Below, piece by piece: positions 10,981 to 35,451 of a stretch of DNA of 64,000 nucleotides; positions within the stretch are counted from its first letter, which is position 1; every line of letters begins with the position of its first letter. A program made the position numbers and the translations under genes. The DNA is taken from positions 60,551 to 124,550 of IMG/VR virus record IMGVR_UViG_3300013093_000023. One strand, 5' to 3'. The stretch is from a virus. The notes beneath the pieces are model-generated. The model had not been told where the DNA came from and made no database searches. It worked only from the letters and a program-made list of their open reading frames with translations.

Positions 10981-10983
10981 ATA
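10976..10983 (+). promoter_or_regulatory. T4-type late promoter motif (AATAAATA)
   Basis: AATAAATAC lies over the stop codon of the preceding gene and 4 bases before the gp25 ATG. Spacing and the following ATATGCC are almost the same as at 5233, so the predicted start again coincides with the start codon. Confidence 0.4.
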
Positions 10984-10987
10984 CAAT

Positions 10988-11377: not shown

Positions 11378-11398
11378 ACATACCATATAATTTTACCT

Positions 11399-11406
11399 GA
11401 TAAATA
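11399..11406 (+). promoter_or_regulatory. T4-type late promoter motif (GATAAATA)
   Basis: GATAAATACTGAATA lies in the 49-base gap before gp6. With T4 spacing, transcription would begin near 11412, leaving about 15 bases that contain an AGGTAA ribosome-binding site before the ATG at 11427. The 12-base core GATAAATACTGA is repeated exactly at 26379. Confidence 0.65.
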
Positions 11407-11426
11407 CTGAATATAGGTAAAATATT

Positions 11427-14522: not shown

Positions 14523-17500
14523 TGGCACAAATTAGTTCACTTAATTTTTTACCTGAAGTATTCAGAAGTTCTGCCAACCAACGTTTCCTTGGCGCAACAG
14601 TTGATCAATTAATAGCAGACCCAGTAAAACGTCCTATCAGTGGCTACATTGGGCGCAAGTTTGCTCCTACATATAAACTAGGCGATAACTATGTTCCTGA
14701 ATTGTCAGGCGGACGACAAGATTACCAACTTGAGCCCAGTGTTGTCATCAAGGACTCTGATAAAAATATTGTTTTTAATGCTGGCTATATTGATTTACTA
14801 CGCTCAGTACAAACAAATAATGGATCAGTTACCGATCATCAAAAGTTGTTTGGATCAGAATATTACAACTACGACGGACATTTTGACTACGATAAGTTTA
14901 TTAATTACAGCGATTACTATTGGATGCCCAATGGTCCAGACTCTGTTAATGTAACAGCAGGCACAACACCATACGAAGCAACCTACATAGTAACACGCAA
15001 TACTGATGTTGGTGGATATACATTTAGTACACTTGGCGGTCATCCTAATACACAAATTACTCTGGCTCGCGGCGGCACTTATAAATTTATAGTTGACCAA
15101 CCAGGCAATCCATTTTGGATTCAAAGTGAGCCTGGCATTACAGGAACAGATCCTAATGTTCCAACATTGACTACTCGAGATGTTTTTGGAGTTAAAAACA
15201 ACGGCACAGACAAAGGAACAATTACATTTAGTGTTCCGCAGACTACAGCACAAGACTTTTACACTCTAATGCCAGTGGCCGGTCAGGTTGATACTGCTTT
15301 TGCCTACAGCTATACAAAAATACAAAACAGACTACTCAGTGACTTCTTAGTAGAGTTCCCAGACGGACTCGATGGAGTTAGCAATCTACTACAAAATAAA
15401 ACTTTTATTTTTGTTGGCAATCTAATTGATGACAATGATTGGACTACTCCCGATCTACCAGCAGAATTTACCAACAGCCAGATTACACTAACATCAGGTG
15501 GCGTTGTGCCACAAGCAACACGTACTGGTATTTGGCAATTAATATTAGTGCCAACCTTGGCCGGCGACTTTGTAATACAACTTGAACCATACGGTCCAGT
15601 GCTACCAAGACAAAAGGTCTTTGTCAAAGGCGGCAAAACTTATGCGAGTACTGCGTTTTGGTTAGAAAACACCTATCAGTACAAGGTTATTCCTCCTATC
15701 ACATCTGTAAAAGAGTATCTCTACTATCAAGATGCTAACACTGGTGATTTCACCGGCGAAATCAAAATAGTCGACAACTCTACAGTACCAATTGATGTTG
15801 ACAATGATATCGTTGGACAAATTGGCTATACCAGTCCTAACGGTGTTATTTTTACCAATGGCCTACTAATACAATTTGACAGTCTTGTAACTCCAAGCAC
15901 CTATGCTCTTAAACAATATTATGTAGAAGGTGTAGGACAAAGTATTACTCTAGTTCCTGTTGCCGGACTAACAGTTCCACCGGGCCTAAGTAGTTTAGTT
16001 TCTAGCACAGGCGATTATATTACTATCAATCGTGCTAGCCAAGATGGTAACAGTTGGTCAGCTACTAATCGTTGGTTCCACAAAGATGTTTTAGCCGCCG
16101 CCGCTGGTTACAATAATCAGGCAACTATCAACTATGGTCCAGTAATACAGGCCCGTAGACCTATCATTGAGTTTGAGCCCGACATTCAGTTATGGCAATT
16201 TGGCCGTCAGGCAAAAACCAAAGTTGATTTGTTTATTACAGCATCAACTGACGCCTTTGCTGAAATTGAAGGACAAATTACATATACTTTAGATGGAGTT
16301 ACATTAACTCCAGGACTACGTATTATTTTCTCCAATGACTACGACATTAACGTAACAAACAATATCTATACGGTTAGCATTGAAAGTATTAATAGTCGCA
16401 ACTTTATACGACTGGTACTAACTGCGGACGATCCTGTACTTGACGGGGAAACTATATTTGTTAACTCTGGTGCCAACGCAAATAAAATTTTTAGTTACGT
16501 TGGCGCGACAGCAAGTTGGTTAGAATGCCAGGCAAAAACAACCTTTAATCAGGCACCACTATTTGATTTAGTTGATGCTGACGGATATAGCTTTGGTGAC
16601 ACTACAATGTATCCTGCTAGCACGTTTGCTGGAACAAAATTCTTTGGCTACGCTACTGCCACAGGAACCAATGACAGCATATTAGGCTTTCCCTTAAAGT
16701 ATCAAAACTTTAACAACATTGGCGATATTGTATTCCAAAATTACTATGACACAGACTCATTTACCTATACCGGTGGCGCCAAAGACTGTAACAGCGGATA
16801 TATTAAAAAGAATTCTGGTTTATTGTCAAGCGAAAAATTCAATAACTGGATTGTTGGTGTTGAACCAACACATCAGTATCAGGTGTTTACACGTTTCTTT
16901 GACGGACACGTAGTAACCATCAACAATGTTGAATATGCGTTTTTACAACTTGATATATTACCCGCCGACCAAGCAACTATTCCTTATGTAAAAGTTTACC
17001 TAAATAACAAACTGTTGACAGCTACAACAGATTATCAAATAACCAAATATGGTGTGTATGATGTGTTGTTGTTTACTAGTATTCCTGCAGTCCACGATAA
17101 AATAGACATTAAAATCTATAGTAATAATGCCAGCACAATCGCATATTATGAAGTTCCCGATAACCTAAATTACAATCCATTAAACGAAAATTTTGATACA
17201 GTAACTCTAGGTCAAATTAGAAATCACTATACTAAATTAATAGAAAACACAGCGGCAACAGTAACAGGAAACCGACCACTGCATGATAGTTACATTAAAG
17301 CACAAGGTGGTACATTATTACAACAAAGCAGTCCAGTAGTATATGCTACTGCGTTCTTAAATGACCCTAGTGTTAATTTTATCAACGCAGTTGATTTGGC
17401 AAGAAAAGAATACACTAAATTTAAAAATAAATTTTTAAGTTTATGCGGTACATTAACTACCATTGATTATAAAGATCCAGTGTCTGGTGTAGACACAATT

Positions 17501-20500
17501 TTAGCCAATATCAATAGTATTAAAAATAACAGCTATCCTTGGTATTATAGTGATATGGTACCACAAGGCGAGAACTATACTACAATTACCTACACCGTAT
17601 TAAACTCTCGTCAGACCAAATATGAAATCAGTACAATTTTTAACAATACTGAATTAAGTAATCGTGCGATACTAGTTTATTTAACTAGAGCTGGAGTAAC
17701 CACTCAATTAACAGTTGGGGTAGACTATGAGTTTAGTTTAAATAGTCCAGCTATTACATTTTTAACTGCACTACAAAACAACGATACAATTACCTTACGT
17801 GACTACTCAACTACCGACGGTAACTATATTCCTGAAACACCAACTAAGTTGGGATTATTTCCAAAGTACGTACCGGAAATTTATACCGACATCACATATC
17901 AAACTGCACAGTCGGTTATTCGCGGCCACGATGGCTCGATTACCCCGGCGTTTGGTGACTTCAGGGACCAGTATCTACTAGAACTTGAACGTCGTATCTA
18001 TAATAATATCAAAGCCGACAACAATAATAATATCATTGACTTCTATGATATTATACCTGGTCGTTTTCGTAAAACTGAATATACTATAGAAAGTATAACA
18101 AAATTATTAAGCCAGAATTTCTTGAGTTGGGTCGGCAATAACAATTTAGATTATACAAGTAACAGTTGGTATCAACAAGACAATCCTTGGACCTGGAACT
18201 ACGCAATAGGATTCTCTGATGTAGTCGATGGATCGCCACTGCAGGGTAGCTGGAGAGCAATATACGAATATTGGTTTGATACAGATACTCCTGATTTGAC
18301 ACCTTGGGAAATGTTAGGGCTTTCTTCAAAACCAACCTGGTGGGAAGAACATTATGGTCCTGCGCCGTATACCAATGGCAATACCACATTGTGGGAAGAC
18401 CTGGCAGCCGGTTATGTATGGAACGGCGGCAACGGCAATGATTACACAGACCTACGTTTTGCTCGTCCGGGTCTAACAAAATTTATACCAGTGGACCGCA
18501 ATGGTAATTTATTGCCACCAACAGATATTCCATTGTCTACACAGTACAATACTCGAGACGCCGCCGGCGACTATGCGGTAGGACAACAAGGACCAGTTGA
18601 AACGGCCTGGCGCCGTAGCAGTGACTTCCCGTATGCTCTACAGGTAGCACTGGCTCTAAGCAAACCAGCTGAATACTTTGGCACACAACTTGATATTAGC
18701 CGGTTCTATGTAAATCCAGTGACTGGGCATATAAGCAACGTTAATAATCAAAAAATTAATCCTAGTTTACTAGCAGTTAATGGCGACACAACATCTGGCA
18801 CCGTATTGCGTACTAGCGGATATATCAATTGGATAGCCGACAGTATTAAGAACTTGGGTATTGATCCAGTAACTAAACTCAACGACTATTTTAGTAACTT
18901 ATCGGTTCAATTGGCCTATAGAACAGCTGGATTTACTGATCAAAAATTAATTAGTGTAACAGCAGAACAAACAAGTCCCGGTAGCACAAATGCGTCAGTA
19001 TTGATACCAGATGAAAACTATCAGGTCTACTTAAACAAATCTAATACTACAACCACTGTAAATTATAGTGCGGTGTTGGTTGAAAAAACCAGTACTGGAT
19101 ACATGGTAAAAGGATATGATACCACTACACCGTTTTTTACTATTACACCAAGTATTGCTAATAATAATAAAACTACAATTTCTGTAAATGACAGCACTCT
19201 TAATTTTTACAAAGATGCTCAGGCAACATCAATTAATATTCCTTACGGAACTGTATTTTCAACTAGCCAACAGGTAGTAGATTTTTTAATCAGCTACGAA
19301 AGATATTTACGTAGTGCTGGATTTGTATTTGACCAATACGATCAAGATTTACAATTACAAAGAGATTTTAAACTAAGCGCACAAGAATTTGCCTATTGGA
19401 TACAGCAAGGTTTCCCAACTGGATCAATTATTGTATTGAATCCAGTTGTTGATACTATCACTTTAAATTCTACGTATTCTGTAGTAGATGAAATTACAAA
19501 TCTACCAGGCGGTAGCCGTTTACTTGATCAAAATTTTGTACCTATTAAGAGCAACAGATTTAACATTGTTAGAGCTTCTAAAACTCCAACATTAAATCAA
19601 ACAGTGGTTTCGACTGTTGATGGAAGTAATATTGCCTATGGTAAATTTAATCTAGTACAACTCGAACACGTATTAATATTTGACAACGTAGATGACTTTG
19701 GTGATATTATATATGTTCCTAAGTTAGGTAACCGTCAATATCGTTTGGGTATTAAAGGATCCATTACTGGTAACTGGAACGGCGGACTAACTGCGCCGGG
19801 TTATGTTTATAGTAATCCAGTGATATCAAATTGGAGTGAAGGTGTTGACTATAAACTAGGAGACATTGTTAAATTTAACAATAATTATTTCCTGGCCGCG
19901 GTAGATATTCCAGCCAGTCAGTTATTCGGCGCAGGCAATTGGACACAAATTAAATCAAGCAATATTCAGACTGGACTGTTGCCAAGTTTTGGTACTAATG
20001 CCAAAGTGTTTGAACAGATTTATGATATTGATAATCCGCCACAAGATGAGATGTTACAAAAGTTCAGTGCTGGATTACTAGGATTCCGCGAGCGTTCATA
20101 TTTGACAGACCTGGGTGTAAACATCTCTAATCAAACCAAGTTCTATCAAGGCTACATCCGACAAAAAGGTACTAAGAATAGTATTGACGCCTTGACTCGT
20201 GCTAGTTTTAACAACGTAACCGGTAACATCAGTATCTATGAAGAATGGGCATTCCGTTCTGGTACTTATGGCGACATTGACAATAATAAATTTACCGAAG
20301 TAGTTTTAGATCAAAGTGTATTCACTACTAACCCAGTTAGCTTATTATTAACCGACAACTATGATCCTACTAATATAGTTGTTAATTTAGCAGTTACAGG
20401 AAATACTGTAACATCAAATGTCTATAACTCAAGTAACATTCAAAGTACAAGTACCAGCATATACTCTAACAGAGAACTTAATTCTGTTTATATAAACGAT

Positions 20501-23500
20501 ATGCCTTACGCAGGATACGTAAACGTCAACGACATTGACGGCACTATCTTTGATGTAATTAATTATGGTCAGGTGTTTAATCTAGTAGCAGGCAATAAAA
20601 TTTGGGTAGCCAAGGATGTTAATAAAGCCTGGAACGTATATCGTGTCAGCGAAACAAACTTATTAGCAACACAGTTGACATATTCTCTAGACAACTATGC
20701 AAGACTTACTTTCAACAATCCGCACTCATTTAGTGTTGGTGAGTTTGTTATAGTTAAAAACTTTAATCCGCACTGGGATGGTATATACCAGGTTACTGCT
20801 ATACCAAATCAGTTAAGCATTACTATACAGATACAAGATAAAACCAAGTTGGGATATCTAATTAGCGTAAGCCCTGCCTATGGTTCTGGACAGGTCTACA
20901 CACTAACATCTTACGTAATTGACAGTATTAAAGATGTTGAAAGTGTACGTCCAATCAATGACTTTATAGCCAACGAGCACGTATGGGTTAATAATGCTAC
21001 CGACATTGGATGGGGTGTTTATACATTTAACCGTCCTTGGGCGGCAAACAGCGTACAAAGATTAACAGCTAACTCTGCGTCAAGTAATGCCTTACTTGGA
21101 TCAACAGTTGCGGCTAGTCCAGACCTAAACAAAATTTATGTTGGCGCTCCTGGATCAAACTCTGTACAAATATTTGCTAACTCTGCTGGCAGTTATACTG
21201 CTGTTGGAACAATAGCCAACACTGATTCAAAATTTGGTACCAGTATTGCCACAGCCGGTAATTTGATAGCAGTTGGTGCCCCTGGTGCTAGCACAGTACA
21301 TATCTACTCAACCAGCAACGGAATCAGTAGCGTACAAACACTACACTCACCAAACGCAAATGTTGCCTTTGGTAGCCAGGTCGCCTTTAATAGCCTAGGT
21401 AATGTATTATATGTGTCAGATCCTACTACACGATCAGTACACGCATTTGCAGGCAACCTACAGACTAACCATTGGTCTTGGCGAGCAAAAGTAACAGCCA
21501 ATGTGGCTAGTATCGCAACAACTGCCTGTGGCGATCGATTATTTGTTGGCGCACCTACTGACAATAATGGATACGTACAAAATGGTAATGTCTATATCTA
21601 CTCATTCAATGGAACAGCATTTGGAGTCGCACAAACAATTACTAGCCAATACAAAAATTCTAATGCTGGATTTGGTACTAGCCTTGCTGTAGATGCTACC
21701 GGCGGTAATTTATTTGTTGGTGTACCTTACAGTACTATCAGCAAAAGTGCCGACGGCTTAGTCGAACGTTGGGTATACACTGGTGGACAATACGTGTTTA
21801 ATTCAAACATTGTTCATCCTAATGAAGCCATTGGCTCGCTTGGCACTAGTATGAGTGTCAGCAGTGATGGGCAGGTATTAGCAGTTGGTAGTTCAGGTAG
21901 TACTGGCGAAGAAGATACTACGTTTGACAACAACACTACAGTCATTGACGCACAGAGCACTAAGTTTATTGATTTCATACTCAACAGCGGCACCGTTTAT
22001 ACATTTGAGCCAGTATTTGATTATGGTACTCCAAACGATTTAGGCAAGTACACTTATATACAAGAACTAAGCAGTCAACTACACGCCGGAGACCAATTTG
22101 GCACAGGTGTGTTTGCTTCCCGTACTTTGGTAGTTGCTGGCGCACCCGGTACAACAGTATCTTCTTTGGCCAATGCTGGAGAAGTACACGTGTACGCAAA
22201 TCCAGATTCCAGCATTGGCTGGACACTAACACGTTGTCAAGAACTTAAAGTTGATATTAATAGTATTAATCGTACGTTTATCTACAATAAAAAAGACAAT
22301 AATATTTTAACTACTATTGACTATGTTGATCCGTTAAAAGGCAAAGTACTAAATGCTGTAGCCGCTGACATCGACTATCAACGTGTAGAAGATCCGGCTA
22401 TCTACAATGCCGGACAAGGAACTAGCACAGATTACCACTGGGGACCGGATCAGGTTGGAAAAATTTGGTGGAACCTTGATGCTGTACGATACATAGACTA
22501 CGAGCAAGATACTCTAGACTACAGACTAAATCATTGGGGTGAACGTTTTCCAGGCAGTGAAATTTTAGTCTACGAGTGGGTAGAAAGTTCAATGTTGCCA
22601 AGTCAATATGCTATGTCCAGTACCGACGGCACACCTTTGTATCCAGACGATAGCTATTACTCTACATATGGTTATGTTGATCAGGCCGGTAATGTTAAAA
22701 TAAAATATTACTTCTGGGTATTAAACAAATCAACAATTAACACAGCCGCTGGAAAACAAAATAGCGTTTACAGTATTGCGGCCGCTATTGAAAATCCATT
22801 TAGCCAAGGTGTTGCGTATTCTACTGTACTACGCAACGACGCAGTAGCATTGTACAATGTTACCAATCGATTGGTTGGAACAAACAGCGTACTGCATCTA
22901 TCAAGCCGTGCCGTTGACGCAGGATTGATACACAGCGAATACGCACTAGTACAAGAAGGCAATCCAAGTAGCGTATTACCTCGCACAATCCAGAACAAAA
23001 TTACAGATAGTCTAGCTGGTATTGATTCAGCTGGCAACGTAGTTCCTGATCCAAACTTAACTGCGGCACAGGCATATGGTATTAATATACGCCCACGCCA
23101 AAGTGTATTTGTTAACAGAACTACAGCACTGGCAAATTATATTGATATTGTCAACACCAAATTGGCAGTATATCAGGTTACACGTCGTAAAGTTCTAACC
23201 ACATTAAACAGTAGCGAGGCCGCACCTAATTCTAGTTCGGGGCAATATGTTGTTAGTGTAGCTGACAATACAGAATTAACTTATGTTGATACCACACAAT
23301 TATCAACAGGCGACAGTGCATTAGTTGTAAGCGATACTACACAAAATAGTAAATGGGCAATCTATACCTGGACTGGCACAACCTGGGTTCTAGGCCGCAC
23401 ACAGAAATATAAAACAAATGCAGTAGACAGTAACGGCCTAGGAATTTACTGGCACTACATAAACTGGTATGCTACTGGCTACGATTCGACTGTGGCTCCA

Positions 23501-26380
23501 AATATAACAGTTGCTACCACGCTTGATCTAGGTAAAATTACACTGACACCAAACACCTATGTCAAGGTAAATGATGCTGGCGATGGACTATTTGAAATCT
23601 ACTACGTTGACAGCAGTTTGAATAAAACTCTTGTTGGTATAGAAAACGGAACTATTCAGATTAGTACAGGTTCTATTCCTGGTCCTGAATTGCGTCAAAT
23701 TCTAATTGCGTTAAAAGACGAAATATTCATCGATGATTTATCAGCAGACGGAAATCAAATTTTCTTCTCAATGATCAAATATGCGTTGACAGAACAAAAA
23801 AATCTTGATTGGGTATTTAAAACCAGTTTCTTAAGTGCTACACAGTACTTACGTAAACTTGAACAATTCCCTAGCTATATTGCGGACAATCAAACTTATT
23901 ATCAGCAATACATCAACGAAGTTAAGCCTTACCGAACAATTTTACGTGAGTTTGTTGTTGACTATCTAGGCAACGATCAATACTCAGGCGATGTCACAGA
24001 CTTTGACTTGCCAGCATATTGGGACGCCTCGCTTGGTGTGTATCGCAGTCCAAGTGGTGAACAATCATATGACGATGGATTACTCAGCAACAATGGCCAA
24101 TACCAATCTTGGGCCAACAATCACAGCTATAGCCTAGTTGGAATTACAGTTGATAACCCAGGACAAAATTATATTTTCCCACCACAGATTGTTCTAAGAT
24201 ATTCCGATGATCCAAAATCTCCAGTAATCCCAAATGCCAATGCCTATGCTGTATTAAATGGTGTAGGTGGTGTCGGAGAAATTATTGTAACAACTCCTGG
24301 TACTGGTTTAACTACTACTCCAAATATCACAATCAATGGGTCAGGAACTGGCGCAGTTGCTAGCCCAATCTTACGCAACGTCTATACTGGATTTACAGCT
24401 AATTCATATAACCTAGTTCGTAGCATTGGAACAACTATAAAGTTTGATCGTACCACGTATACAAATGCCAACACTTTTGTATTCTGGGATCAGGTCAGTG
24501 CTAACAATGTTATTTTGGCTAATACTATTGTTGTAAACGGTGAAGATTTATACAAATTAACTGTAACCGATTGGCAGGCCAATACAGCGGCCAACGTTGG
24601 TACATTAATTTACTATAATGGCAACACCTATACTGTAACTGGTAATGTCGAGGGTCCTGTATTTTCAAGTATCCAGGCCAATGCTAATTTGTCAGTGGCA
24701 GGACAACGTGCTTATAGTGTAACCAGCAGTCTTGCTTTACCAATTGTAAACTTAATACCACTTAAGGCTGGAGATTTTAACAACGCCAATGACCGTATTA
24801 TTGCGTTCAATGGAAATATTGATCTAACTACAACAACAGATGGTATGAGCTATCCAGGGGTTATAGTCGATGGCAATACCTATGTTGGCACAGAGTACGA
24901 TGCTGTTGTACAAAGTGCGTTTACAGATAGTGTAGGAGTAAATCCTGGCGATATTAACATTGACGGCGGTGCTTACATTAGTACATTCAGCACACACGCA
25001 CCTCAAGAATTAGTTCCAGGTCGTATGTATGATAGTTTAAATCTAACAGTATACGACAAAGATGCATTATCATATCGTATTTTTAACAATATGAATCAAT
25101 CAGTTAACTATTACAGAATTGCTTCAAACAATTCTGTGACATTAACTAGATCTTTGGCACTAACAGATACAGCTATACAGGTCAATGATGCTACCAAATT
25201 GCCTTTGCCTGACAGACAATTAAATATTCCAGGCGTGATATTTGTTAACGGAGAAAAAATTGTTTACTGGAGAAACTACGCATTAGAAACTCCATTTACC
25301 TGGCAGGCTAATTTAAATATTTCAGTGGGTGAATTGGTTAGCCACAACAGCAACACTTACGTGACTACTGGTAATATCTACGACATTTATGGAAACTGGG
25401 CTAACATTCAAGCAAATACTAGCCGTGTTACTAATTTTAATACTATTACACAATTACGTCGTGCAGTAGACGGCACAAGTCCACAGACTGTTCATGCTGC
25501 CGGTAGTCTTGCTATTGATGCCAGTGTTGATCAGGCAATCCCGGGTATATTTGAAATACAAACAAAACTAACATCAAATACCAGCTACAAAGTAACAGAT
25601 TCAAGTGCTATTACGTTTGCTTTAAAATTAACAGCGCCAATTAGTGCCAACGTTGGAGATATTTTAACACAAAAAGTTACTATTGATCCTTGGACTGACG
25701 CAGACTACGAATCAAATAGATATGTTTACTATAACGGCAGTACTTATTTGACTACTGGTAACATTCTGATCCCAACAGTACCTTGGACGCCAAATACTGT
25801 ATTTGCCAACGCAACATTTATCAGTAATGGTAATGTTACCTATCTAACAACTGGTAATGTCTATGCCAGCAACTTTGCCAACATTATTGCTAACGTAGCA
25901 ACAGGGCACAGTAAGTTTGAAAAGATTTTAACATCAGGTAATGTATCATTTGCTTTTGCTGGAAACACAATTACCAGTGTAACTATGCGAGCAATGGATA
26001 CAATCAGTAATTCAACCATAATACCAATTGTAATTACAAATGGTAGTATCACTAACTTACCAGAAATTTTTGATGGTACTGGATTTGACGTTGAAGCTTT
26101 TGATAACACACCCGGTGCGTTGTACATTCAGGGCCCAAATCAACCAATACCTATAAATGCCTACAGTTTTGTACGTAGTGCTTCAATATTGGGAGAAGTT
26201 GACATCACTGGTTATGCCGCAGTTAAAGCAAATTCGACAATTACCAGCACACGTACCTGGTACACCCCAGGCCCAGTTACAGCAACAAATGGAAGAGGTT
26301 TAATTAATAGCGCAACACCACAGGCCAACTTCTTAAAAGCCAGCAGAGGATTTACTCCAGTACCAGGAACAACCCCATGA
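14522..26380 (+). CDS. Giant virion structural protein (3952 residues) with FG-GAP-like propeller and repeated W-x-N carbohydrate-binding-like motifs
   Basis: One uninterrupted reading frame of 3952 codons. The N-terminus (SSLNFLPEVFRSSANQRFLG) looks like a conserved docking segment. About residues 2190-2560 hold six FG-GAP-type beta-propeller repeats (for example IYVGAPGSNSVQIF, IAVGAPGASTVHIY, LFVGAPTDNNG, VVAGAPGTTVS), the fold of integrin alpha chains. Repeats of the form W-x-N-x(7)-V-x-Y-N-G-N-T-Y-x-x-T-G-N occur at about residues 1771, 3351, 3594, 3724 and 3755 and recall small carbohydrate-binding modules. Position straight after gp6, where T4 has gp7 and gp8, suggests a baseplate-peripheral or long adhesive protein. 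No gp7 or gp8 is recognisable elsewhere in the window. The stop overlaps the next gene by ATGA, with a late promoter across the junction. Function beyond virion structure is inferred. Confidence 0.85.
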   Translation: MAQISSLNFLPEVFRSSANQRFLGATVDQLIADPVKRPISGYIGRKFAPTYKLGDNYVPELSGGRQDYQLEPSVVIKDSDKNIVFNAGYIDLLRSVQTNNGSVTDHQKLFGSEYYNYDGHFDYDKFINYSDYYWMPNGPDSVNVTAGTTPYEATYIVTRNTDVGGYTFSTLGGHPNTQITLARGGTYKFIVDQPGNPFWIQSEPGITGTDPNVPTLTTRDVFGVKNNGTDKGTITFSVPQTTAQDFYTLMPVAGQVDTAFAYSYTKIQNRLLSDFLVEFPDGLDGVSNLLQNKTFIFVGNLIDDNDWTTPDLPAEFTNSQITLTSGGVVPQATRTGIWQLILVPTLAGDFVIQLEPYGPVLPRQKVFVKGGKTYASTAFWLENTYQYKVIPPITSVKEYLYYQDANTGDFTGEIKIVDNSTVPIDVDNDIVGQIGYTSPNGVIFTNGLLIQFDSLVTPSTYALKQYYVEGVGQSITLVPVAGLTVPPGLSSLVSSTGDYITINRASQDGNSWSATNRWFHKDVLAAAAGYNNQATINYGPVIQARRPIIEFEPDIQLWQFGRQAKTKVDLFITASTDAFAEIEGQITYTLDGVTLTPGLRIIFSNDYDINVTNNIYTVSIESINSRNFIRLVLTADDPVLDGETIFVNSGANANKIFSYVGATASWLECQAKTTFNQAPLFDLVDADGYSFGDTTMYPASTFAGTKFFGYATATGTNDSILGFPLKYQNFNNIGDIVFQNYYDTDSFTYTGGAKDCNSGYIKKNSGLLSSEKFNNWIVGVEPTHQYQVFTRFFDGHVVTINNVEYAFLQLDILPADQATIPYVKVYLNNKLLTATTDYQITKYGVYDVLLFTSIPAVHDKIDIKIYSNNASTIAYYEVPDNLNYNPLNENFDTVTLGQIRNHYTKLIENTAATVTGNRPLHDSYIKAQGGTLLQQSSPVVYATAFLNDPSVNFINAVDLARKEYTKFKNKFLSLCGTLTTIDYKDPVSGVDTILANINSIKNNSYPWYYSDMVPQGENYTTITYTVLNSRQTKYEISTIFNNTELSNRAILVYLTRAGVTTQLTVGVDYEFSLNSPAITFLTALQNNDTITLRDYSTTDGNYIPETPTKLGLFPKYVPEIYTDITYQTAQSVIRGHDGSITPAFGDFRDQYLLELERRIYNNIKADNNNNIIDFYDIIPGRFRKTEYTIESITKLLSQNFLSWVGNNNLDYTSNSWYQQDNPWTWNYAIGFSDVVDGSPLQGSWRAIYEYWFDTDTPDLTPWEMLGLSSKPTWWEEHYGPAPYTNGNTTLWEDLAAGYVWNGGNGNDYTDLRFARPGLTKFIPVDRNGNLLPPTDIPLSTQYNTRDAAGDYAVGQQGPVETAWRRSSDFPYALQVALALSKPAEYFGTQLDISRFYVNPVTGHISNVNNQKINPSLLAVNGDTTSGTVLRTSGYINWIADSIKNLGIDPVTKLNDYFSNLSVQLAYRTAGFTDQKLISVTAEQTSPGSTNASVLIPDENYQVYLNKSNTTTTVNYSAVLVEKTSTGYMVKGYDTTTPFFTITPSIANNNKTTISVNDSTLNFYKDAQATSINIPYGTVFSTSQQVVDFLISYERYLRSAGFVFDQYDQDLQLQRDFKLSAQEFAYWIQQGFPTGSIIVLNPVVDTITLNSTYSVVDEITNLPGGSRLLDQNFVPIKSNRFNIVRASKTPTLNQTVVSTVDGSNIAYGKFNLVQLEHVLIFDNVDDFGDIIYVPKLGNRQYRLGIKGSITGNWNGGLTAPGYVYSNPVISNWSEGVDYKLGDIVKFNNNYFLAAVDIPASQLFGAGNWTQIKSSNIQTGLLPSFGTNAKVFEQIYDIDNPPQDEMLQKFSAGLLGFRERSYLTDLGVNISNQTKFYQGYIRQKGTKNSIDALTRASFNNVTGNISIYEEWAFRSGTYGDIDNNKFTEVVLDQSVFTTNPVSLLLTDNYDPTNIVVNLAVTGNTVTSNVYNSSNIQSTSTSIYSNRELNSVYINDMPYAGYVNVNDIDGTIFDVINYGQVFNLVAGNKIWVAKDVNKAWNVYRVSETNLLATQLTYSLDNYARLTFNNPHSFSVGEFVIVKNFNPHWDGIYQVTAIPNQLSITIQIQDKTKLGYLISVSPAYGSGQVYTLTSYVIDSIKDVESVRPINDFIANEHVWVNNATDIGWGVYTFNRPWAANSVQRLTANSASSNALLGSTVAASPDLNKIYVGAPGSNSVQIFANSAGSYTAVGTIANTDSKFGTSIATAGNLIAVGAPGASTVHIYSTSNGISSVQTLHSPNANVAFGSQVAFNSLGNVLYVSDPTTRSVHAFAGNLQTNHWSWRAKVTANVASIATTACGDRLFVGAPTDNNGYVQNGNVYIYSFNGTAFGVAQTITSQYKNSNAGFGTSLAVDATGGNLFVGVPYSTISKSADGLVERWVYTGGQYVFNSNIVHPNEAIGSLGTSMSVSSDGQVLAVGSSGSTGEEDTTFDNNTTVIDAQSTKFIDFILNSGTVYTFEPVFDYGTPNDLGKYTYIQELSSQLHAGDQFGTGVFASRTLVVAGAPGTTVSSLANAGEVHVYANPDSSIGWTLTRCQELKVDINSINRTFIYNKKDNNILTTIDYVDPLKGKVLNAVAADIDYQRVEDPAIYNAGQGTSTDYHWGPDQVGKIWWNLDAVRYIDYEQDTLDYRLNHWGERFPGSEILVYEWVESSMLPSQYAMSSTDGTPLYPDDSYYSTYGYVDQAGNVKIKYYFWVLNKSTINTAAGKQNSVYSIAAAIENPFSQGVAYSTVLRNDAVALYNVTNRLVGTNSVLHLSSRAVDAGLIHSEYALVQEGNPSSVLPRTIQNKITDSLAGIDSAGNVVPDPNLTAAQAYGINIRPRQSVFVNRTTALANYIDIVNTKLAVYQVTRRKVLTTLNSSEAAPNSSSGQYVVSVADNTELTYVDTTQLSTGDSALVVSDTTQNSKWAIYTWTGTTWVLGRTQKYKTNAVDSNGLGIYWHYINWYATGYDSTVAPNITVATTLDLGKITLTPNTYVKVNDAGDGLFEIYYVDSSLNKTLVGIENGTIQISTGSIPGPELRQILIALKDEIFIDDLSADGNQIFFSMIKYALTEQKNLDWVFKTSFLSATQYLRKLEQFPSYIADNQTYYQQYINEVKPYRTILREFVVDYLGNDQYSGDVTDFDLPAYWDASLGVYRSPSGEQSYDDGLLSNNGQYQSWANNHSYSLVGITVDNPGQNYIFPPQIVLRYSDDPKSPVIPNANAYAVLNGVGGVGEIIVTTPGTGLTTTPNITINGSGTGAVASPILRNVYTGFTANSYNLVRSIGTTIKFDRTTYTNANTFVFWDQVSANNVILANTIVVNGEDLYKLTVTDWQANTAANVGTLIYYNGNTYTVTGNVEGPVFSSIQANANLSVAGQRAYSVTSSLALPIVNLIPLKAGDFNNANDRIIAFNGNIDLTTTTDGMSYPGVIVDGNTYVGTEYDAVVQSAFTDSVGVNPGDINIDGGAYISTFSTHAPQELVPGRMYDSLNLTVYDKDALSYRIFNNMNQSVNYYRIASNNSVTLTRSLALTDTAIQVNDATKLPLPDRQLNIPGVIFVNGEKIVYWRNYALETPFTWQANLNISVGELVSHNSNTYVTTGNIYDIYGNWANIQANTSRVTNFNTITQLRRAVDGTSPQTVHAAGSLAIDASVDQAIPGIFEIQTKLTSNTSYKVTDSSAITFALKLTAPISANVGDILTQKVTIDPWTDADYESNRYVYYNGSTYLTTGNILIPTVPWTPNTVFANATFISNGNVTYLTTGNVYASNFANIIANVATGHSKFEKILTSGNVSFAFAGNTITSVTMRAMDTISNSTIIPIVITNGSITNLPEIFDGTGFDVEAFDNTPGALYIQGPNQPIPINAYSFVRSASILGEVDITGYAAVKANSTITSTRTWYTPGPVTATNGRGLINSATPQANFLKASRGFTPVPGTTP

Positions 26381-29157: not shown

Positions 29158-30183
29158 ATGTACGGACGTGGAATATTTGTTAAAAAGAACGGACTTTGGG
29201 TCGAAACTACTCCGAGGGTAGCCGACCACAATAATCCACTGGCCAGTAATACTGGTAATACTGTTGTTGTTAGCGTTACAATTATTGGCGGCAGTGGTGG
29301 ATCTGGTGGCGGCAATGGATACCCTGGTTATAACGGGCGTCAGGTCACTGGCAATCTTACACTAGGCTATAGCGATCAAATTACTGTAGCTATTGGCGCA
29401 GGTGGCGGAGCAGGTTCAGGAGGCGCCGGAGCTGGAGGTGGCAGTGGTGGCGCAAACAATCTAGGATTCAATGGAGCCAATGGTGGATCGGCTGGATCCG
29501 GTGGTGGTAACTCTGGAGGCGGTGGTGGTGGAGCAACCGTACTATTGCTAAACAAACAATTAAAAATCGTTGCCGGAGGCGGCGGAGGTGGAGGTGGCGG
29601 CGGAGCCAGCTCTGATGGTCGAGCAAATCAAGGCTATACTAGCGACGGACACCAATATGGATTACCCGGACAAGACAAAACATCTGGTGGTAATCAATAT
29701 GTTGGGGGTGGCGGTGGTGGCAAGATCATCTGTACCAAACTATATCAGTTGGGATTATTGCCTGAAGACATTTATGCGGCAGACCAAGCATTTGGTGCTC
29801 GCTTAGTTGAACGTTACCCAGATGTATATAATGGCTATAGAGCTTGGGCAGAAATAGTAGTCGATTGGATGTCGGGTGATGGCCCACAAATGATGTTCTG
29901 GATACGTGACACAGAGCAACGTCGGCAGGCACAAATTAACTGGTCCACTCGGTGGGCACAGGCAATAGCAACTCCTTGGGCCAATTGGATGGCTAATCGC
30001 AACAGCCGTACTGGATTTGCCTTAATGGTAGTTGGTACTCCAATTAGTTACGGGGTAGGTGTATGGCGTCGAGTATTTGGTGCCAGCAAAAAGCCAGCTG
30101 GATTTGTTAAAGGGCTAGCCTTAATTGGTGTATTTACGCTACTACGAACTGTAGTAACCATTGGAAAATTGTTAGGAAAATAA
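29158..30183 (+). CDS. Glycine-rich tail fibre segment ending in a KIICTKLY domain
   Basis: A 341-residue protein in two parts. Residues 1-188 contain a short N-terminal strand region and then a glycine-rich domain (many GGxGG and GSGGG runs) typical of phage fibre tips. At a poly-Gly stretch the sequence switches abruptly to a 153-residue unrelated domain beginning KIICTKLYQLGLLP, with ADQAFGARL, YNGYRAWAEIVVDWM, WSTRWAQAIATPWANWM and a hydrophobic C-terminus (GLALIGVFTLLRTVV) that could be membrane-active or a buried helix. The same domain ends the protein at 30807-32573 at an equivalent poly-Gly junction. Glycine-rich tips of T4-like phages bind receptors. The appended domain may be an assembly chaperone, a capping domain or an acquired element; its function is unknown to me. 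Confidence 0.75.
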   Translation: MYGRGIFVKKNGLWVETTPRVADHNNPLASNTGNTVVVSVTIIGGSGGSGGGNGYPGYNGRQVTGNLTLGYSDQITVAIGAGGGAGSGGAGAGGGSGGANNLGFNGANGGSAGSGGGNSGGGGGGATVLLLNKQLKIVAGGGGGGGGGGASSDGRANQGYTSDGHQYGLPGQDKTSGGNQYVGGGGGGKIICTKLYQLGLLPEDIYAADQAFGARLVERYPDVYNGYRAWAEIVVDWMSGDGPQMMFWIRDTEQRRQAQINWSTRWAQAIATPWANWMANRNSRTGFALMVVGTPISYGVGVWRRVFGASKKPAGFVKGLALIGVFTLLRTVVTIGKLLGK

Positions 30184-30184
30184 A

Positions 30185-30403
30185 ATGTATACAATAGATA
30201 GTTTAAGTGAACAGGTTATCAATAGTTTAAGTGATGCTGAACGCGATCAACTGTACAACATACTGGTAAACAATACTGGATTAATGTTAAAGTTAATGCC
30301 AAATTTACCTTTGTTACTACATATCAGCGGTCAAGATAGAAATATTGCTCATCCAGTTATTGCTAATTTTGAAGCATGGAAAACAAACCAATCACAGGCC
30401 TAA
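30185..30403 (+). CDS. Small protein between two glycine-rich fibre genes
   Basis: A 72-residue protein, MYTIDSLSEQVINSLSDAER at the start, with a mostly helical first half and a hydrophobic LMPNLPLLLHI middle. It starts 2 bases after the preceding stop and overlaps the following gene by 28 bases, so it is probably real and cotranslated. I recognise no family. Together with the next gene it separates the two glycine-rich fibre parts. Confidence 0.55.
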   Translation: MYTIDSLSEQVINSLSDAERDQLYNILVNNTGLMLKLMPNLPLLLHISGQDRNIAHPVIANFEAWKTNQSQA

Positions 30404-30810
30404 CAGTACGCCGAGTCATTGGGCCAGAGCTAACAGCGTTATGGCCTAAAGTAGAGGAATACATTGGTCGAGCTCAACCTTGGGGGTATGGTGATCATAC
30501 TATTGAGCAGATTAAATTAGAATTGATAGTAACAGATAGATGGATACTGCTAATAGCAGAAGATGAAAATAAGGAAATACACGGAGCCGCAACATTTACT
30601 TTTATTGAATATCCCAACGATAAGGTAGCATTTATGACTTATATAGGTGGGCACTTAGTTAGCAACCCTGCTACAAATGCTCAATTAGAACGTATATTAA
30701 AATCATATGGTGCTACTAAAATACAAGGGTTTGTTAGAAAAAGTATGGCGCGATATGCCAGAATGTTTGGATACCGTGAACGAGGAATTGTTGTAGAAAC
30801 TAAATTATGA
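30376..30810 (+). CDS. GNAT-fold acetyltransferase-like protein
   Basis: A 144-residue protein with a GNAT-like order: an N-terminal VRRVIGPELTALWPKVEEYI helix, central strands WILLIAEDENKEIHGAATF and VAFMTYIGGHLV, then a helix (TNAQLERILKSYGATKI) and the late motif SMARYARMFGYRERG, the usual GNAT strand-6 arrangement. The acetyl-CoA pyrophosphate loop (Q/R-x-x-G-x-G/A) is not obvious, so it may be a degenerate or non-catalytic member of the kind found near phage virion genes. It overlaps the genes on both sides by 28 and 4 bases. Its position inside the fibre cluster suggests a role in fibre modification or assembly, but this is inference. Confidence 0.6.
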   Translation: MENKPITGLTVRRVIGPELTALWPKVEEYIGRAQPWGYGDHTIEQIKLELIVTDRWILLIAEDENKEIHGAATFTFIEYPNDKVAFMTYIGGHLVSNPATNAQLERILKSYGATKIQGFVRKSMARYARMFGYRERGIVVETKL

Positions 30811-32573
30811 GCCAATACTATAGCCGACGCCAATTATATTCTCTAGGTGAACCCCTAGGAGATAGTGCTACCCAGACTAAAGTGGGAGGCGGCCGTATCT
30901 ACGGAGGTGGTGGTGGCGGGGGAGGTGGTGGACACAACACAGGACCCCAGGGCGGGGGAGGTGGTGGTGGAGGTGGAGGCTACGGCGGTGGTGTTGGCGG
31001 AAACCAATACGGCGAAAACGATGGTGCTTATAGCGGAAGTAATGGCGGAAGTCTAGTACCGTCTGGATGTGTTGAAACAGATTCAGGCTTGGGTGCCAGT
31101 GCTGATGGTAAAGTAATAATAAGTTATGTTAGCCCATCACGTTTATTCAGTGGCGGGGATATATCTTTTGATGGATATACCTGGACACATACTTATACTA
31201 CAGATACACCAGCATCAGAATCTATATTTACAACCAAAGGCGCCCCAAGCGGGTTTGGTCCTTTTGTTGAAGTAGCACAAGGGTGGACAAAGATCAACGG
31301 AGAATGGAAACAATTCTTTCCGAGCACTGGTAAAATTACATTTAACCCAGATGGTACACTAGATTTAACAACATCTCAAGGAGTCCTGTCTGGGGTTTTA
31401 CCTGCCGATGCGGCAAAGTTAGCACAAGGTGTAAACAACACCAACGCCGGACAGCTAGATTACGCAAGTAGTGTTCGTGCGTCCAACCAATTATTTTATC
31501 TAAGCCAGGTTACACCTTATCCTATTACTGCCAACAATGTTATAGCACCAAACGCATTCAGCTCCGGCGCAGTAGTAGTAATTGATAAAAATGGAAATCC
31601 AGTAGACATAGCTGATTCTAGCGATCCAATTGGTACATTCTTAAATTACGTGTTTGACCCAACACTAGACGGCGGCAATGAAGCACAACAAAATAGTTTT
31701 ATAAGTTGTATACAGGCTGCCGAGTATGTACAGGCTGTTAATAACAGTTTGTCTGGCACTACTAATACCTATACATTTACAGTTCCACCTGGAATTTTCC
31801 AGGTTACCATAGATGCCGTTGCTGGCGGAGGTGGCGGCGGAGGTGGAGAAGAAGTAGGTGTAGGTGATGCTGGAGGCGGTGGTGGTGGAGCTGGCTACGT
31901 ACAAGGACAAACTATGACAGTAAGTCCTGGCGAGCAACTGACTATTACTATTGGTCAAGGCGGCGGTGGAGCACCAGTAGTCGGAAGAACAACCGGAGCA
32001 CCTGGCGGAGCACCTGGCTCAAGCACAGCAATTACAGGTTTAGACGGACATATTGTGGTTACAGGTGGACGTGGAGGCGGCGGTGGAGCCAGCGCAGATA
32101 CCGGTGGGGGTGGTGGCGGCAAGATCATCTGTACTAAGCTCTATGAACTTGGACTACTACCCAAAGATATTTACGAAGCCGACCAAGCGTTTGGCGCTCG
32201 TTTAGTTGAAAGTTACCCAGACATTTATAACGGATATCGTGCCTGGGCTGAAATTGTAGTTGATTGGATGAACGGGCAAGGTCCTAAGATGATGCCTTGG
32301 ATGTCAGATGATGAATTTAGCACAGCGGCACAACAGTGGTCCACTCGATGGGCACAGGCAATAGCAACACCGTGGGCCAATTGGATGGCACACAAAAACG
32401 ATCGTACAGGATTAGCACTGATGATTGTAGGTACACCAATCAGTTATGCTGTAGGAGTATGGCGTCGGATATTTGGGCCAGCACGTAAACCAGCAGGATT
32501 TGTTAAAGGGCTAGCTCTTATTGCGGTATTTGTATTATTAAGAGCTATTGTACTAATAGGAAAGGGCAAATAA
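30807..32573 (+). CDS. Two-part glycine-rich tail fibre protein ending in a KIICTKLY domain
   Basis: A 588-residue protein with four parts. Residues about 25-100 are a glycine-rich tract closing with SADGKVIISYVSPSRLF, the strand that usually ends such domains. Residues 105-310 are a separate structural region (DGYTWTHTYTT, WTKINGEWKQFFPSTGKITF). Residues 315-437 are a second glycine-rich domain opened by TNTYTFTVPPGIFQVTIDAV. From residue 439 the KIICTKLYELGLLP domain follows, ending in a hydrophobic LIAVFVLLRAIVLIGKGK. That C-terminal domain is closely similar to the end of the 29158 protein. The second glycine-rich domain lacks its closing strand, which instead appears in the next gene. 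Start overlaps the previous stop by 4 bases (ATGA). Confidence 0.75.
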   Translation: MSQYYSRRQLYSLGEPLGDSATQTKVGGGRIYGGGGGGGGGGHNTGPQGGGGGGGGGGYGGGVGGNQYGENDGAYSGSNGGSLVPSGCVETDSGLGASADGKVIISYVSPSRLFSGGDISFDGYTWTHTYTTDTPASESIFTTKGAPSGFGPFVEVAQGWTKINGEWKQFFPSTGKITFNPDGTLDLTTSQGVLSGVLPADAAKLAQGVNNTNAGQLDYASSVRASNQLFYLSQVTPYPITANNVIAPNAFSSGAVVVIDKNGNPVDIADSSDPIGTFLNYVFDPTLDGGNEAQQNSFISCIQAAEYVQAVNNSLSGTTNTYTFTVPPGIFQVTIDAVAGGGGGGGGEEVGVGDAGGGGGGAGYVQGQTMTVSPGEQLTITIGQGGGGAPVVGRTTGAPGGAPGSSTAITGLDGHIVVTGGRGGGGGASADTGGGGGGKIICTKLYELGLLPKDIYEADQAFGARLVESYPDIYNGYRAWAEIVVDWMNGQGPKMMPWMSDDEFSTAAQQWSTRWAQAIATPWANWMAHKNDRTGLALMIVGTPISYAVGVWRRIFGPARKPAGFVKGLALIAVFVLLRAIVLIGKGK

Positions 32574-32574
32574 T

Positions 32575-32886
32575 ATGGCAGGCGGTGGAGCAGGTGGAAC
32601 CCCAAACGGCAGCCCAGGTGCTGACGGGCAAGGCGGTAGCGGAGATAGCAGTTCAGGATCCGGCGGTGCAGGTGGCAGTACACCTTTTGGCACAGGTGGC
32701 GCTGGCGGCGTCCCTGGGGATAGCACCGGCAAAGACGGCCAAGGCTATGGAGCCGGCGGCGGTGGAGCAGGATTTACAGATAGAACCGGTCCACTTAACT
32801 GGGGCGGAGGCGCAGGTGCGCCGGGGCTAGTAAGAATTTATTGGGGGCCACAACAAGACCCAAATTACACTACAGTACCAAAGTAA
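32575..32886 (+). CDS. Glycine-rich fibre tip fragment encoded as a separate gene
   Basis: A 103-residue protein made almost wholly of Gly, Ala, Ser and Asp (MAGGGAGGTPNGSPGADGQG at the start), closing with GGGAGAPGLVRIYWGPQQ, the terminal strand typical of glycine-rich fibre domains. It starts 2 bases after the stop of the KIICTKLY-domain gene (TAATATG arrangement). It reads like the missing second half of the glycine-rich domain interrupted in the preceding gene. Whether it assembles with that protein or is a remnant cannot be told from sequence. No ribosome-binding site is obvious, so translation may depend on coupling. Confidence 0.65.
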   Translation: MAGGGAGGTPNGSPGADGQGGSGDSSSGSGGAGGSTPFGTGGAGGVPGDSTGKDGQGYGAGGGGAGFTDRTGPLNWGGGAGAPGLVRIYWGPQQDPNYTTVPK

Positions 32887-32920: not shown

Positions 32921-34879
32921 ATGCCATACACAATTAATCATTATAACGGCAACGTATTAATACAAACAATTAACGACGGGTTTGCAGACAATTCAACCTC
33001 GCTGACTTTCCCTGGCCCAAATTATGTAGGCTATGGGCAGTATCTTAACCAAAACTTAGTATATCTACTAGAGAATTTTGCGGGAAACACAGCACCCGGC
33101 GGTCAAAATGTACCTGGACAACTTTGGTTTAACACACAACAACAAACATTAAACGTATTTACAAGTGCTGGATATGTTCCAGTATCTGGTGTTATTGTAA
33201 GTAATCTACAACCAGCTGGTACTAAACCCGGCGATACTTGGTTTAATACTGGTACAAGTCAGTTTTATTTGTTTGATGGAACTGATTGGAATTTAATTGG
33301 GCCAGCATACACTAGAGCACAAGGTATCAGCGGTGCAGTACCTGTTCCGGTAGTTGATACGCTAGGTACTGTACATAATATTCTTCAACTACAGTATGGT
33401 AATGTAGTTATTGCTACAGTCAGCGGAGATCCAACGTTTGCTCCTGCTTCAGGATTATCTGGTTTTACCTTAGTAAAACCTGGTATTACATTTAACAGTT
33501 CAATGACTGCTTCGATTAATACCAACATTGTTGGTACCCTAACCGGTAACGTAGTTGCTCAGTCTATATCTGGCACATTAACTGGACCAGTGTTTGGTAA
33601 CTTAACTGGTGACGTAGTTGGTAACTTAACTGGTAACGTTGTAGCAACTACACTAGTTGGGTCATTGACTGGTAACGTACAAAGTAGTCGTGGGCAAATA
33701 ACAAACTTTAGTACAGCTAACGCTGTGATTGCTGGCGGATATATTACAGTATCAAATGTAACAACCCTAACATTAACAGCTACAAATCTCAGTACAGCCA
33801 ATGCTGTAATCACAGGAGGCACAGCAACAGGCCTTGCTAACATTTCAGCTACAACTGGTTCTTTTTCTACCATTAACGTAACAACAGAAATTGTTGCTAA
33901 TTTACGTACAGGCAACGCACAAATTACTGGTGGTAACTCATCTGTAACAAATGCAACATCGGTAAATGAAACCGCTACAAACTTTAGTACTGGTAATGCT
34001 CTTATCACCGGCGGTAACGTTAATGGCCTTACTAATTTAAGTGCGGCAACCGCATCCTTCCAAAATTTAACTACAACTTCTATTAGTATCAGCAGTGGTA
34101 GTATCGCTGGTTTAACTAACTTAGGTTCTGGTAATGCTACTATTACAAACTTTAGCACTGGCAACGCACAGGTCACCGGCGGTACGCTAGCAAATGTATC
34201 AATAACTACTCCTGTTGTTACTCGAGCAAACTTAGTAAATGCTATTGCAAATACTCCAGCAACTAATGATCGTACTGCCAACGTAGCTACTACCGCTTTT
34301 GTTCATAATGTTATGCCAACTGGTATGATTATTATGTGGGGCGGTTTAGTTTCTAATATTCCAAGTGGCTGGCATTTATGTGATGGCACTGGTGGTACAC
34401 CAGATTTACAAGATAGATTTATTGTAGGCGCTGGAAACAATTATAATGTTGGCGACTCAGCTGGTCAAAACACCACTACACTAACTACTGCTATGTTACC
34501 AAGCCATAACCACTTTGTAACATTAACTGGCAATACAAATACTGCTGGTAGTCACTCACACGGAGTGGCAATAACTGACAATGGACACGCACACGTTATG
34601 CCGGGTGACGATCAGCTAGCATTTGCTGCCGGCCGTGCTAACTGGAGTGGATCATCAGTTGACAGTTTTGGATACGATGCTACCAGTGTAGCCAGTGGCG
34701 GTGGAAGATTATGGAATACAACAACTGCTAGCACTGGTATTGGCGTCAGCATTAATACTGCCAATGACCACTTACATTCGTTAACTATTTCTGGAAATAC
34801 TGCGTCAACTGGTGCTGGTACAGCATTTGATAATCGCCCACCTTACTACGCACTTTGCTTTTTACAGAAAGTCTATTAA
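32921..34879 (+). CDS. Short tail fibre-like protein with phage tail collar domain, paralogue 2 of 3
   Basis: A 652-residue fibre. Residues 1-190 are the N-terminal domain shared with the 27082 and 35452 proteins (YLNQNLVYLLENFAG, GQLWFNTQQQTLNVF, GDTWFNTGTSQFYLFDGTDW). Residues about 190-440 are beta-helical repeats: a block of LTG-x-V-x-G-x-LTG units and then NFSTGNAQITGG-type units. From about residue 465 the tail collar domain begins: PTGMIIMWGGLVSNIPSGWH, LCDGTGGTPDLQDRFIVGAG, then MLPSHNHFVTL with the HSH/HAH histidines that bind metal in T4 gp12-type fibres, and ends DNRPPYYALCFLQKVY. T4 gp12 binds the LPS core. The stop overlaps the start of an oxygenase gene by one base. Confidence 0.9.
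   Translation: MPYTINHYNGNVLIQTINDGFADNSTSLTFPGPNYVGYGQYLNQNLVYLLENFAGNTAPGGQNVPGQLWFNTQQQTLNVFTSAGYVPVSGVIVSNLQPAGTKPGDTWFNTGTSQFYLFDGTDWNLIGPAYTRAQGISGAVPVPVVDTLGTVHNILQLQYGNVVIATVSGDPTFAPASGLSGFTLVKPGITFNSSMTASINTNIVGTLTGNVVAQSISGTLTGPVFGNLTGDVVGNLTGNVVATTLVGSLTGNVQSSRGQITNFSTANAVIAGGYITVSNVTTLTLTATNLSTANAVITGGTATGLANISATTGSFSTINVTTEIVANLRTGNAQITGGNSSVTNATSVNETATNFSTGNALITGGNVNGLTNLSAATASFQNLTTTSISISSGSIAGLTNLGSGNATITNFSTGNAQVTGGTLANVSITTPVVTRANLVNAIANTPATNDRTANVATTAFVHNVMPTGMIIMWGGLVSNIPSGWHLCDGTGGTPDLQDRFIVGAGNNYNVGDSAGQNTTTLTTAMLPSHNHFVTLTGNTNTAGSHSHGVAITDNGHAHVMPGDDQLAFAAGRANWSGSSVDSFGYDATSVASGGGRLWNTTTASTGIGVSINTANDHLHSLTISGNTASTGAGTAFDNRPPYYALCFLQKVY
33535..33675 (+). repeat. Direct repeats encoding LTGxVxGxLTG units in the collar-domain fibre
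   Basis: Four to five copies of a roughly 24-base unit centred on AACTTAACTGGTAACGT encode LTGNV, LTGPVFGN, LTGDVVGN, LTGNV and LTGNV. They lie inside the fibre gene and match a similar LTGNV unit in the 35452 gene. Such tracts can support recombination between fibre genes. Confidence 0.6.
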
Positions 34880-35451
34880 TGATTATAGAGTTGGACAATT
34901 TTGTTAGTCCAGATATTGTAAATTATTTAAGCGGCAAATTACGTGAATCTAAAAGCATTTACGGTGAAGCAAACGAGTATCATAGACAGGGTGTTACTGT
35001 AACAATTAGTAAAATCCCAGAGTTAGCTGAAGTTAACAACCAACTCAGCAAAATTTTTGGTAAAATTAAGCAAACTGTACGCGAGTATTACAGACCCAGT
35101 TACAGCGGTAACAGCGACACAGGATACGAATATCACTTGTACGAACCCGGCGATGTATGCGAACTACACAGTGATAGCGAAATAGTAGCAGGTGTGAATG
35201 AATTACGCTATGCCAGCGTGGTTCTTCATTTAAGCACAATTAACAATGGTGGGGAATTGGTTTTTCCAGCACAAAACCAAACGGTAACAACACGTGCTGG
35301 AAAAGTAGTAATTTTCCCTCCATATGGTATGTTCAGCCATTATACAACCCCTAGCACAGAAGCCAGGGAAGTAATAGTATCGTGGCTAACATACGATGGT
35401 GTAGGCATTGTTAAAAAAGGCATAAATATAACAAGCAATCAAGGACTATAA
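34879..35451 (+). CDS. 2-oxoglutarate/Fe(II)-dependent oxygenase
   Basis: A 190-residue protein from the ATG at 34879, which overlaps the fibre stop by one base; an in-frame TTG at 34855 would add 8 residues but lies inside the fibre gene. The iron-binding facial triad is visible: His97 and Asp99 in ELHSDSE, and His154 in FSHYTTP. Arg163 in EAREVIVSW is the expected 2-oxoglutarate anchor. The fold closes with GGELVFPAQ and KVVIFPP strands, as in prolyl-hydroxylase-like members. Phages often carry such enzymes next to fibre genes, where hydroxylation of fibre residues or of host targets is suspected. The substrate is unknown. Confidence 0.88.
   Translation: MIIELDNFVSPDIVNYLSGKLRESKSIYGEANEYHRQGVTVTISKIPELAEVNNQLSKIFGKIKQTVREYYRPSYSGNSDTGYEYHLYEPGDVCELHSDSEIVAGVNELRYASVVLHLSTINNGGELVFPAQNQTVTTRAGKVVIFPPYGMFSHYTTPSTEAREVIVSWLTYDGVGIVKKGINITSNQGL
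35421..35428 (+). promoter_or_regulatory. Late promoter-like motif (CATAAATA)
   Basis: CATAAATATAAC lies inside the end of the oxygenase gene, 24 bases before the ATG at 35452, with an AAGGA ribosome-binding site between them at 35441-35445. The 7-base ATAAATA core is intact, but the AT-rich setting makes chance occurrence possible. Confidence 0.4.

Follow-up and report, generated by a model that had tools for sequence, protein, structure and literature searches.

Within a 64,000-nt stretch of viral DNA (positions 60,551 to 124,550 of record IMGVR_UViG_3300013093_000023; hereafter, the window), two glycine-rich fibre genes each run into a poly-Gly tract, pass directly into one and the same kind of domain and end at a stop codon, after which a separate gene resumes the glycine-rich sequence (Table 1). 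We refer to this domain, which begins KIICTKLY, as IICT, a label of our own. The phage is contractile-tailed (124.5-kb virus record), with baseplate wedge and hub proteins encoded at 8789-14522. In gene 29158-30183 (341 aa) the junction reads YVGGGGGG followed by KIICTKLY, and in gene 30807-32573 (588 aa) DTGGGGGG followed by KIICTKLY, in agreement, as to both coordinates and relatedness, with a preliminary description of the locus made from the sequence alone. The gene behind the second copy indeed restarts at once, opening with MAGGGAGG one base past the stop and ending in APGLVRIYWG, which contains the closing strand GLVRIYWG noted earlier; the other closing strand, KVIISYV, is likewise present, three bases away from the 31107-31127 first given. 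Two additional open reading frames (ORFs), of 72 and 144 aa, do follow the first copy; searches of Pfam, PHROGs, NCBIfam and PDB sequences did not support the GNAT-like label given to the 144-aa ORF, of which the other loci fetched contained no relative.

Table 1. Features of the interrupted fibre genes (window coordinates; HMM, hidden Markov model)
Feature	Position	Strand	Basis
Fibre 1, first part: glycine-rich chain ending in Gly6	29158..29721	+	Order-consistent mapping to unsplit-fibre HMM
IICT copy 1, 153 aa, C-terminus of the 29158 gene	29722..30180	+	79% protein identity to copy 2
Partner gene, family A, 72 aa	30185..30403	+	Small family found behind IICT in 49 of 75 distinct examples
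144-aa ORF	30376..30810	+	No family support
Fibre 1, second part: resumed glycine-rich chain, closing strand KVIISYV at 31110-31130	30807..31136	+	HMM mapping; restart-gene homologue in L012
Fibre 2, first part of Gly_rich_2 domain, ending in Gly6	31761..32120	+	PF21722 3-111; phrog_863 up to 518
IICT copy 2, 150 aa, C-terminus of the 30807 gene, not followed by a partner gene	32121..32570	+	Sequence
Fibre 2, second part: separate gene (103 aa) that has its own Shine-Dalgarno; contains closing strand LVRIYWG	32575..32886	+	phrog_863 518-603; joined PF21722 match

The two parts of fibre 2 proved complementary on curated profiles. Searched individually, the first gene matched the tail fibre profile phrog_863 over positions 292-518 (51.4 bits) and the second over 518-603 (36.1 bits), while their in silico fusion gave a single match spanning 292-603 (95.5 bits). 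Similarly, PF21722 (Gly_rich_2, curated cut-off 24.3 bits) was matched by the first part up to position 111 only (26.9 bits) and not by the second, yet the joined sequence covered positions 3-225 of 226 (38.6 bits). Two more PHROG tail fibre profiles were followed to their ends, or nearly so, only when the parts were joined, and the corresponding fibre of locus L133, once joined, covered positions 1-225 of PF21722. Other glycine-rich fibres are unsplit, carrying IICT at their natural C-terminus or lacking it altogether. The earlier proposal that a domain cassette was inserted twice and left split fibres behind is thus supported by the completeness of the joined fibre 2, by the existence of unsplit fibres and by the use of three poly-Gly sites, described next. 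A tblastn search of the fibre parts against phages gave no matches, low-complexity filtering probably hiding the glycine-rich sequence, and a search with the joined L133 fibre returned short N-terminal matches alone (E 0.01 and above).

Mapped onto an HMM built from glycine-rich unsplit fibres (L006, L011, L013, L019 and L124), the insertions fell at three positions: about 96/204 (L004, L007, L010 and L015), about 250 (window fibre 2 and L133) and about 296 (window fibre 1 and L012). At all three, the first and second fibre parts mapped to adjoining stretches, and it is on this order-consistent mapping, together with homology to L012, that the split of fibre 1 rests. The first position coincides with an extra in-line stretch in the fibres of L006, L011 and L019, which in L019 shows sub-threshold similarity to PA14 (13.7 bits, E 0.054). 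At the second, the window and L009 carry a subfamily A domain and L133 and L012 a subfamily B domain with partner B, implying that cassettes have been exchanged at this site or have arrived there on more than one occasion. A recombination site acting at the DNA level was also considered for the KIICT boundary and rejected: codon entropy revealed ordinary synonymous variation there, indicating that what is conserved is the protein rather than the DNA.

Both the domain and the split appear to have been maintained. In a 69-domain tree the two IICT copies form a sister pair; they differ by a dS of 2.1 (i.e., saturated synonymous sites) and a dN of 0.17 (dN/dS ~0.08), pointing to an old duplication under purifying selection and not to chance. 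The closing gene at 32575 has a dN/dS of ~0.11 against its L134 counterpart, and its Gly and PLNW positions are invariant across five phages. A Shine-Dalgarno sequence precedes its ATG and most restart ORFs in relatives, though the 30807 gene is without a clear one. The arrangement is kept in L009, L012, L133, L134 and L004-type loci, as well as in an isolated cyanophage, Synechococcus phage SynMITS9220M01, where a fibre-domain gene, a small gene and a glycine-rich restart follow one another and the linker consists of Pro and Arg runs instead of poly-Gly. With both parts under purifying selection and the restart ORFs generally having their own ribosome sites, the split fibres look functional. 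The preliminary description had held that insertion would be contradicted if related phages always kept the same separate genes and if the downstream glycine-rich proteins had independent full-length homologues; every relative of the 32575 gene found in IMG/VR is indeed a separate ORF behind the cassette, and no independent full-length protein was among them.

Two IMG/VR scans, the first yielding 46 loci and the second 185 matches, of which 80 were kept, showed IICT outside the window, and carriers, positions and partners were counted over 75 distinct examples. In all 75 IICT is C-terminal, with 1-89 residues (median 8) left to the stop, and in every example read it is in frame with its carrier. 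The linkers are usually of low complexity, made of poly-Gly, Asn-Cys repeats or runs of Pro and Arg, and the search for other proteins ending in IICT after poly-Gly, suggested earlier, found the domain directly behind such a run in about half of the examples. In locus L046 (4866-5003), the sequence LVALIAVAAS before the domain resembles poly-Gly in a shifted reading frame, which hints at a sequencing error or at indels within GGN repeats. Beyond glycine-rich fibres, the carriers include DUF4815 proteins, Asn-Cys proteins, gp5-like OB-domain proteins, two Hint-domain proteins and podophage virion-region proteins, and one close pair of IICT domains (L035 and L037) sits on different carriers. In the gp5-like hub carriers (L101 and L102-L108, upstream of 6001), linker and IICT follow the OB domain; in three such cases the carrier is the record's only phrog_694 match, which spans the OB part and not the lysozyme part. 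Most records hold one IICT copy, and the window phage and three others hold two. The domain also occurs in four genome contigs, including a Sneathiella prophage-like region, and distant members are found in Puniceispirillum phage HMO-2011. Of note, the Hint (intein-like) domains of L044 (2266-3351) and L109 (before 6001) end in VVHNK just ahead of IICT, raising the possibility of self-processing. Moreover, in L038 (5752-6363) two more small proteins ending in NCNCNCNCNC come after the domain-bearing protein; short proteins ending in Asn-Cys repeats are seemingly common in phages of this type.

AlphaFold2 modeled IICT as six helices with high confidence scores (pLDDT 95.1, pTM 0.87). Foldseek found no match in the PDB and four in BFVD, all uncharacterised phage proteins, and neither a PDB sequence search nor Pfam, PHROG or NCBIfam models returned a relative; no description of the domain was found in a literature search that covered open-access text. 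The C-terminal helix is strongly hydrophobic in most members: over ~19 residues, its mean hydropathy is at least 1.6 in 87% of the 69 domains (median 1.96), a value that need not mean membrane insertion, and in the Sneathiella and Moraniibacteriota members most of this helix is missing. Invariant residues comprise I, C, L, D, G, Y, W, A, P and M; Glu and His are not among them. A function like that of T7 gp14 or of a lysozyme was considered for IICT and dropped, as evidence for it was lacking.

IICT is usually accompanied by a small gene, which we call the partner. It was present in 56 of the 75 examples (49 of family A and 7 of family B) and starts within a few bases of the IICT stop, mostly overlapping it by 1 or 4. 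AlphaFold2 predicted five short helices for the 72-aa partner of the window (pLDDT 81.5); this protein matched nothing in Pfam, PHROG, NCBIfam or BFVD and had no PDB sequence relative. The partner is absent behind the second window copy and the first copy of L012, and each of these phages encodes one elsewhere. In HMO-2011 (L136, just after 9354), a 65-aa ORF behind the domain that is unannotated in GenBank overlaps the end of gp49 and matches family A weakly (8.2 bits). On the IICT tree, a minimum of 12 changes is needed for the carrier and 4 for the partner, in line with IICT and its partner having moved together between carriers. In L124 (6456-7298), and likewise in L125 and L126, a partner is fused to a second, divergent IICT-like domain (RVICTWL...), and a further weak family A partner follows this fusion gene.

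We consider it probable that IICT is a promiscuous passenger cassette, displayed on fibres that fold from two chains. The cassette would consist of a linker, the domain, a stop and usually the partner gene, and may have been placed by recombination between GGN-repeat stretches. One operon would make both fibre parts side by side, and these would fold into a single lattice, since the backbone hydrogen bonds between neighbouring glycine-rich segments could tolerate a break; IICT would then hang at that break on its glycine linker. As IICT invariably closes its protein, it may require a free C-terminus, and such a requirement would account for the use of a stop and restart in place of in-line insertion. 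The least certain step concerns function: the hydrophobic last helix might engage the host envelope on contact, with the partner shielding it until particle assembly, a preferred guess that we nonetheless hold to be doubtful. Taken in full, as a mobile membrane-active cargo domain silenced by its partner and borne on whichever particle parts meet the host, be it a fibre, a hub or an internal protein, with two-chain glycine-rich fibres whose lattice reforms around the break, the picture is a tentative one.

Several points weigh against this interpretation. Fibre 1, when joined, matched nothing in Pfam or PHROG, and its first part alone reached 9.9 bits against PF21722, below the cut-off. Although unsplit glycine-rich fibres were found when uninterrupted homologues were sought, as the preliminary description had advised, the IMG/VR scans held no uninterrupted close orthologue of either window fibre, just split forms or nothing, and the unsplit comparison accordingly depends on family profiles and more distant fibres. 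Reversed controls also scored high against the unsplit-fibre HMM, such that the order of mapping is informative and the scores are not. The IICT tree was built quickly and contains several long branches. Hydropathy is the sole basis for proposing membrane activity, and the AlphaFold2 model would suit a soluble bundle as well; two-chain assembly and the presence of IICT in virions are themselves putative.

Of the rival explanations, the one that survives best, though we find it unlikely, takes IICT and its partner for an effector-immunity or holin-antiholin-like pair, in which membrane-damaging tail cargo would be countered by a partner protecting the producing cell. The strictly C-terminal cargo position, the small adjacent gene with its short overlaps (mostly -1 or -4), the hydrophobic last helix and the placement of IICT on a gp5-like central spike, replacing the lysozyme part, would all suit such a pair. 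However, the domain bears no catalytic signature, having neither Glu nor His among its invariant residues, it is a single conserved domain and not a polymorphic set, and some copies, including the second in the window, are without a partner.

The preliminary description had also raised a capping or chaperone domain that ends glycine-rich modules, in which case IICT would act as a folding cap or intramolecular chaperone and each glycine-rich gene would make an independent protein. Chaperones for glycine-rich fibre tips exist (PMC9608196), and both the frequent placement of IICT directly behind poly-Gly and the unsplit fibres that bear it at their natural C-terminus fit this idea. As a general account it fails, given that the same domain ends DUF4815, gp5-like hub, Asn-Cys and podophage proteins; moreover, neither part of fibre 2 is complete by itself, and the two complement one another on two curated profiles. 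We thus regard it as quite improbable.

Accidental splitting, leaving degenerated fibres with leftover downstream fragments, is very hard to credit. Genes could be broken by chance when repetitive GGN DNA receives an insertion, and the poly-Gly of L046 looks as if read in another frame; yet the closing genes are kept in five phages at a dN/dS of ~0.1 with ribosome sites, and the same kind of split recurs at three positions as well as in the genome of an isolated cyanophage. Restoration of a single chain through an intron, an intein, ribosome bypassing or frameshifting, an idea that the single base between stop and restart at copy 2 might invite, is the least credible of all, as zero to two whole genes lie between the parts depending on the locus, an Rfam search found no intron or RNA element, the window proteins have no Hint-type/intein domain at the junctions and the restart ORFs begin at starts of their own, in general accompanied by a ribosome site.

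As a promiscuous passenger, IICT is likened to the immunoglobulin-like (Ig-like) domains of phages, described as C-terminal accessory domains on unrelated virion proteins for which movement by non-homologous recombination was proposed (Fraser et al. 2006, cited in PMC5009743). The two share their C-terminal place on diverse virion proteins and differ in fold and mode of addition. Ig-like domains are beta-sandwiches, whereas the IICT model is all-helical, and IICT is hence not a member; the former are partly added by programmed frameshift, the latter by a stop and gene restart (a frame change being hinted at in L046). In addition, IICT, unlike Ig-like domains, comes with a partner gene and in some cases splits its carrier.

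The carriers and the partner have known counterparts as well. Glycine-rich fibre tips such as S16 gp38 (PMC6851490) and Pam3 gp24 (PMC9608196) are lattices in which backbone hydrogen bonds hold together extended glycine-rich segments linked through loops, and the carrier fibres resemble the polyglycine sandwich of S16 gp38, and Pam3 gp24, in alternating Gly runs with short variable loops. Those proteins are single chains without a passenger, whereas the fibres here are broken at a poly-Gly run. Like the Tfa and Pam3 gp25 chaperones, the partner is a small gene directly behind a fibre gene, but it tracks IICT on any carrier, non-fibre proteins included, and matches no Tfa family. The gp5-like carriers share the OB domain of the T4 gp5 hub, with linker and IICT where T4 gp5 has its lysozyme and needle. 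Polymorphic toxins and other effector-immunity pairs resemble IICT in having a C-terminal domain with an adjacent small gene.

IICT is thus a family without a curated profile or solved relative that sits on several classes of phage particle proteins, with a partner annotated, where annotated, as hypothetical only. It provides a way into the unknown virion proteins of abundant phages of aquatic habitats, which range from T4-like phages to HMO-2011. Should two-chain fibres be confirmed, a receptor-binding glycine-rich fibre would work even though cut inside its lattice, which would bear on fibre evolution and on attachment sites for extra domains.

Elsewhere in the window, 14522-26380 is a single ORF of 3952 aa, very large for a phage structural gene. 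Between two fibre genes, 34855-35451 encodes a protein that by eye resembles 2OG-Fe(II) oxygenases. A similar gene lies at the equivalent place in L012, and in phages of the Asn-Cys type other oxygenase-like genes come after the cassette.

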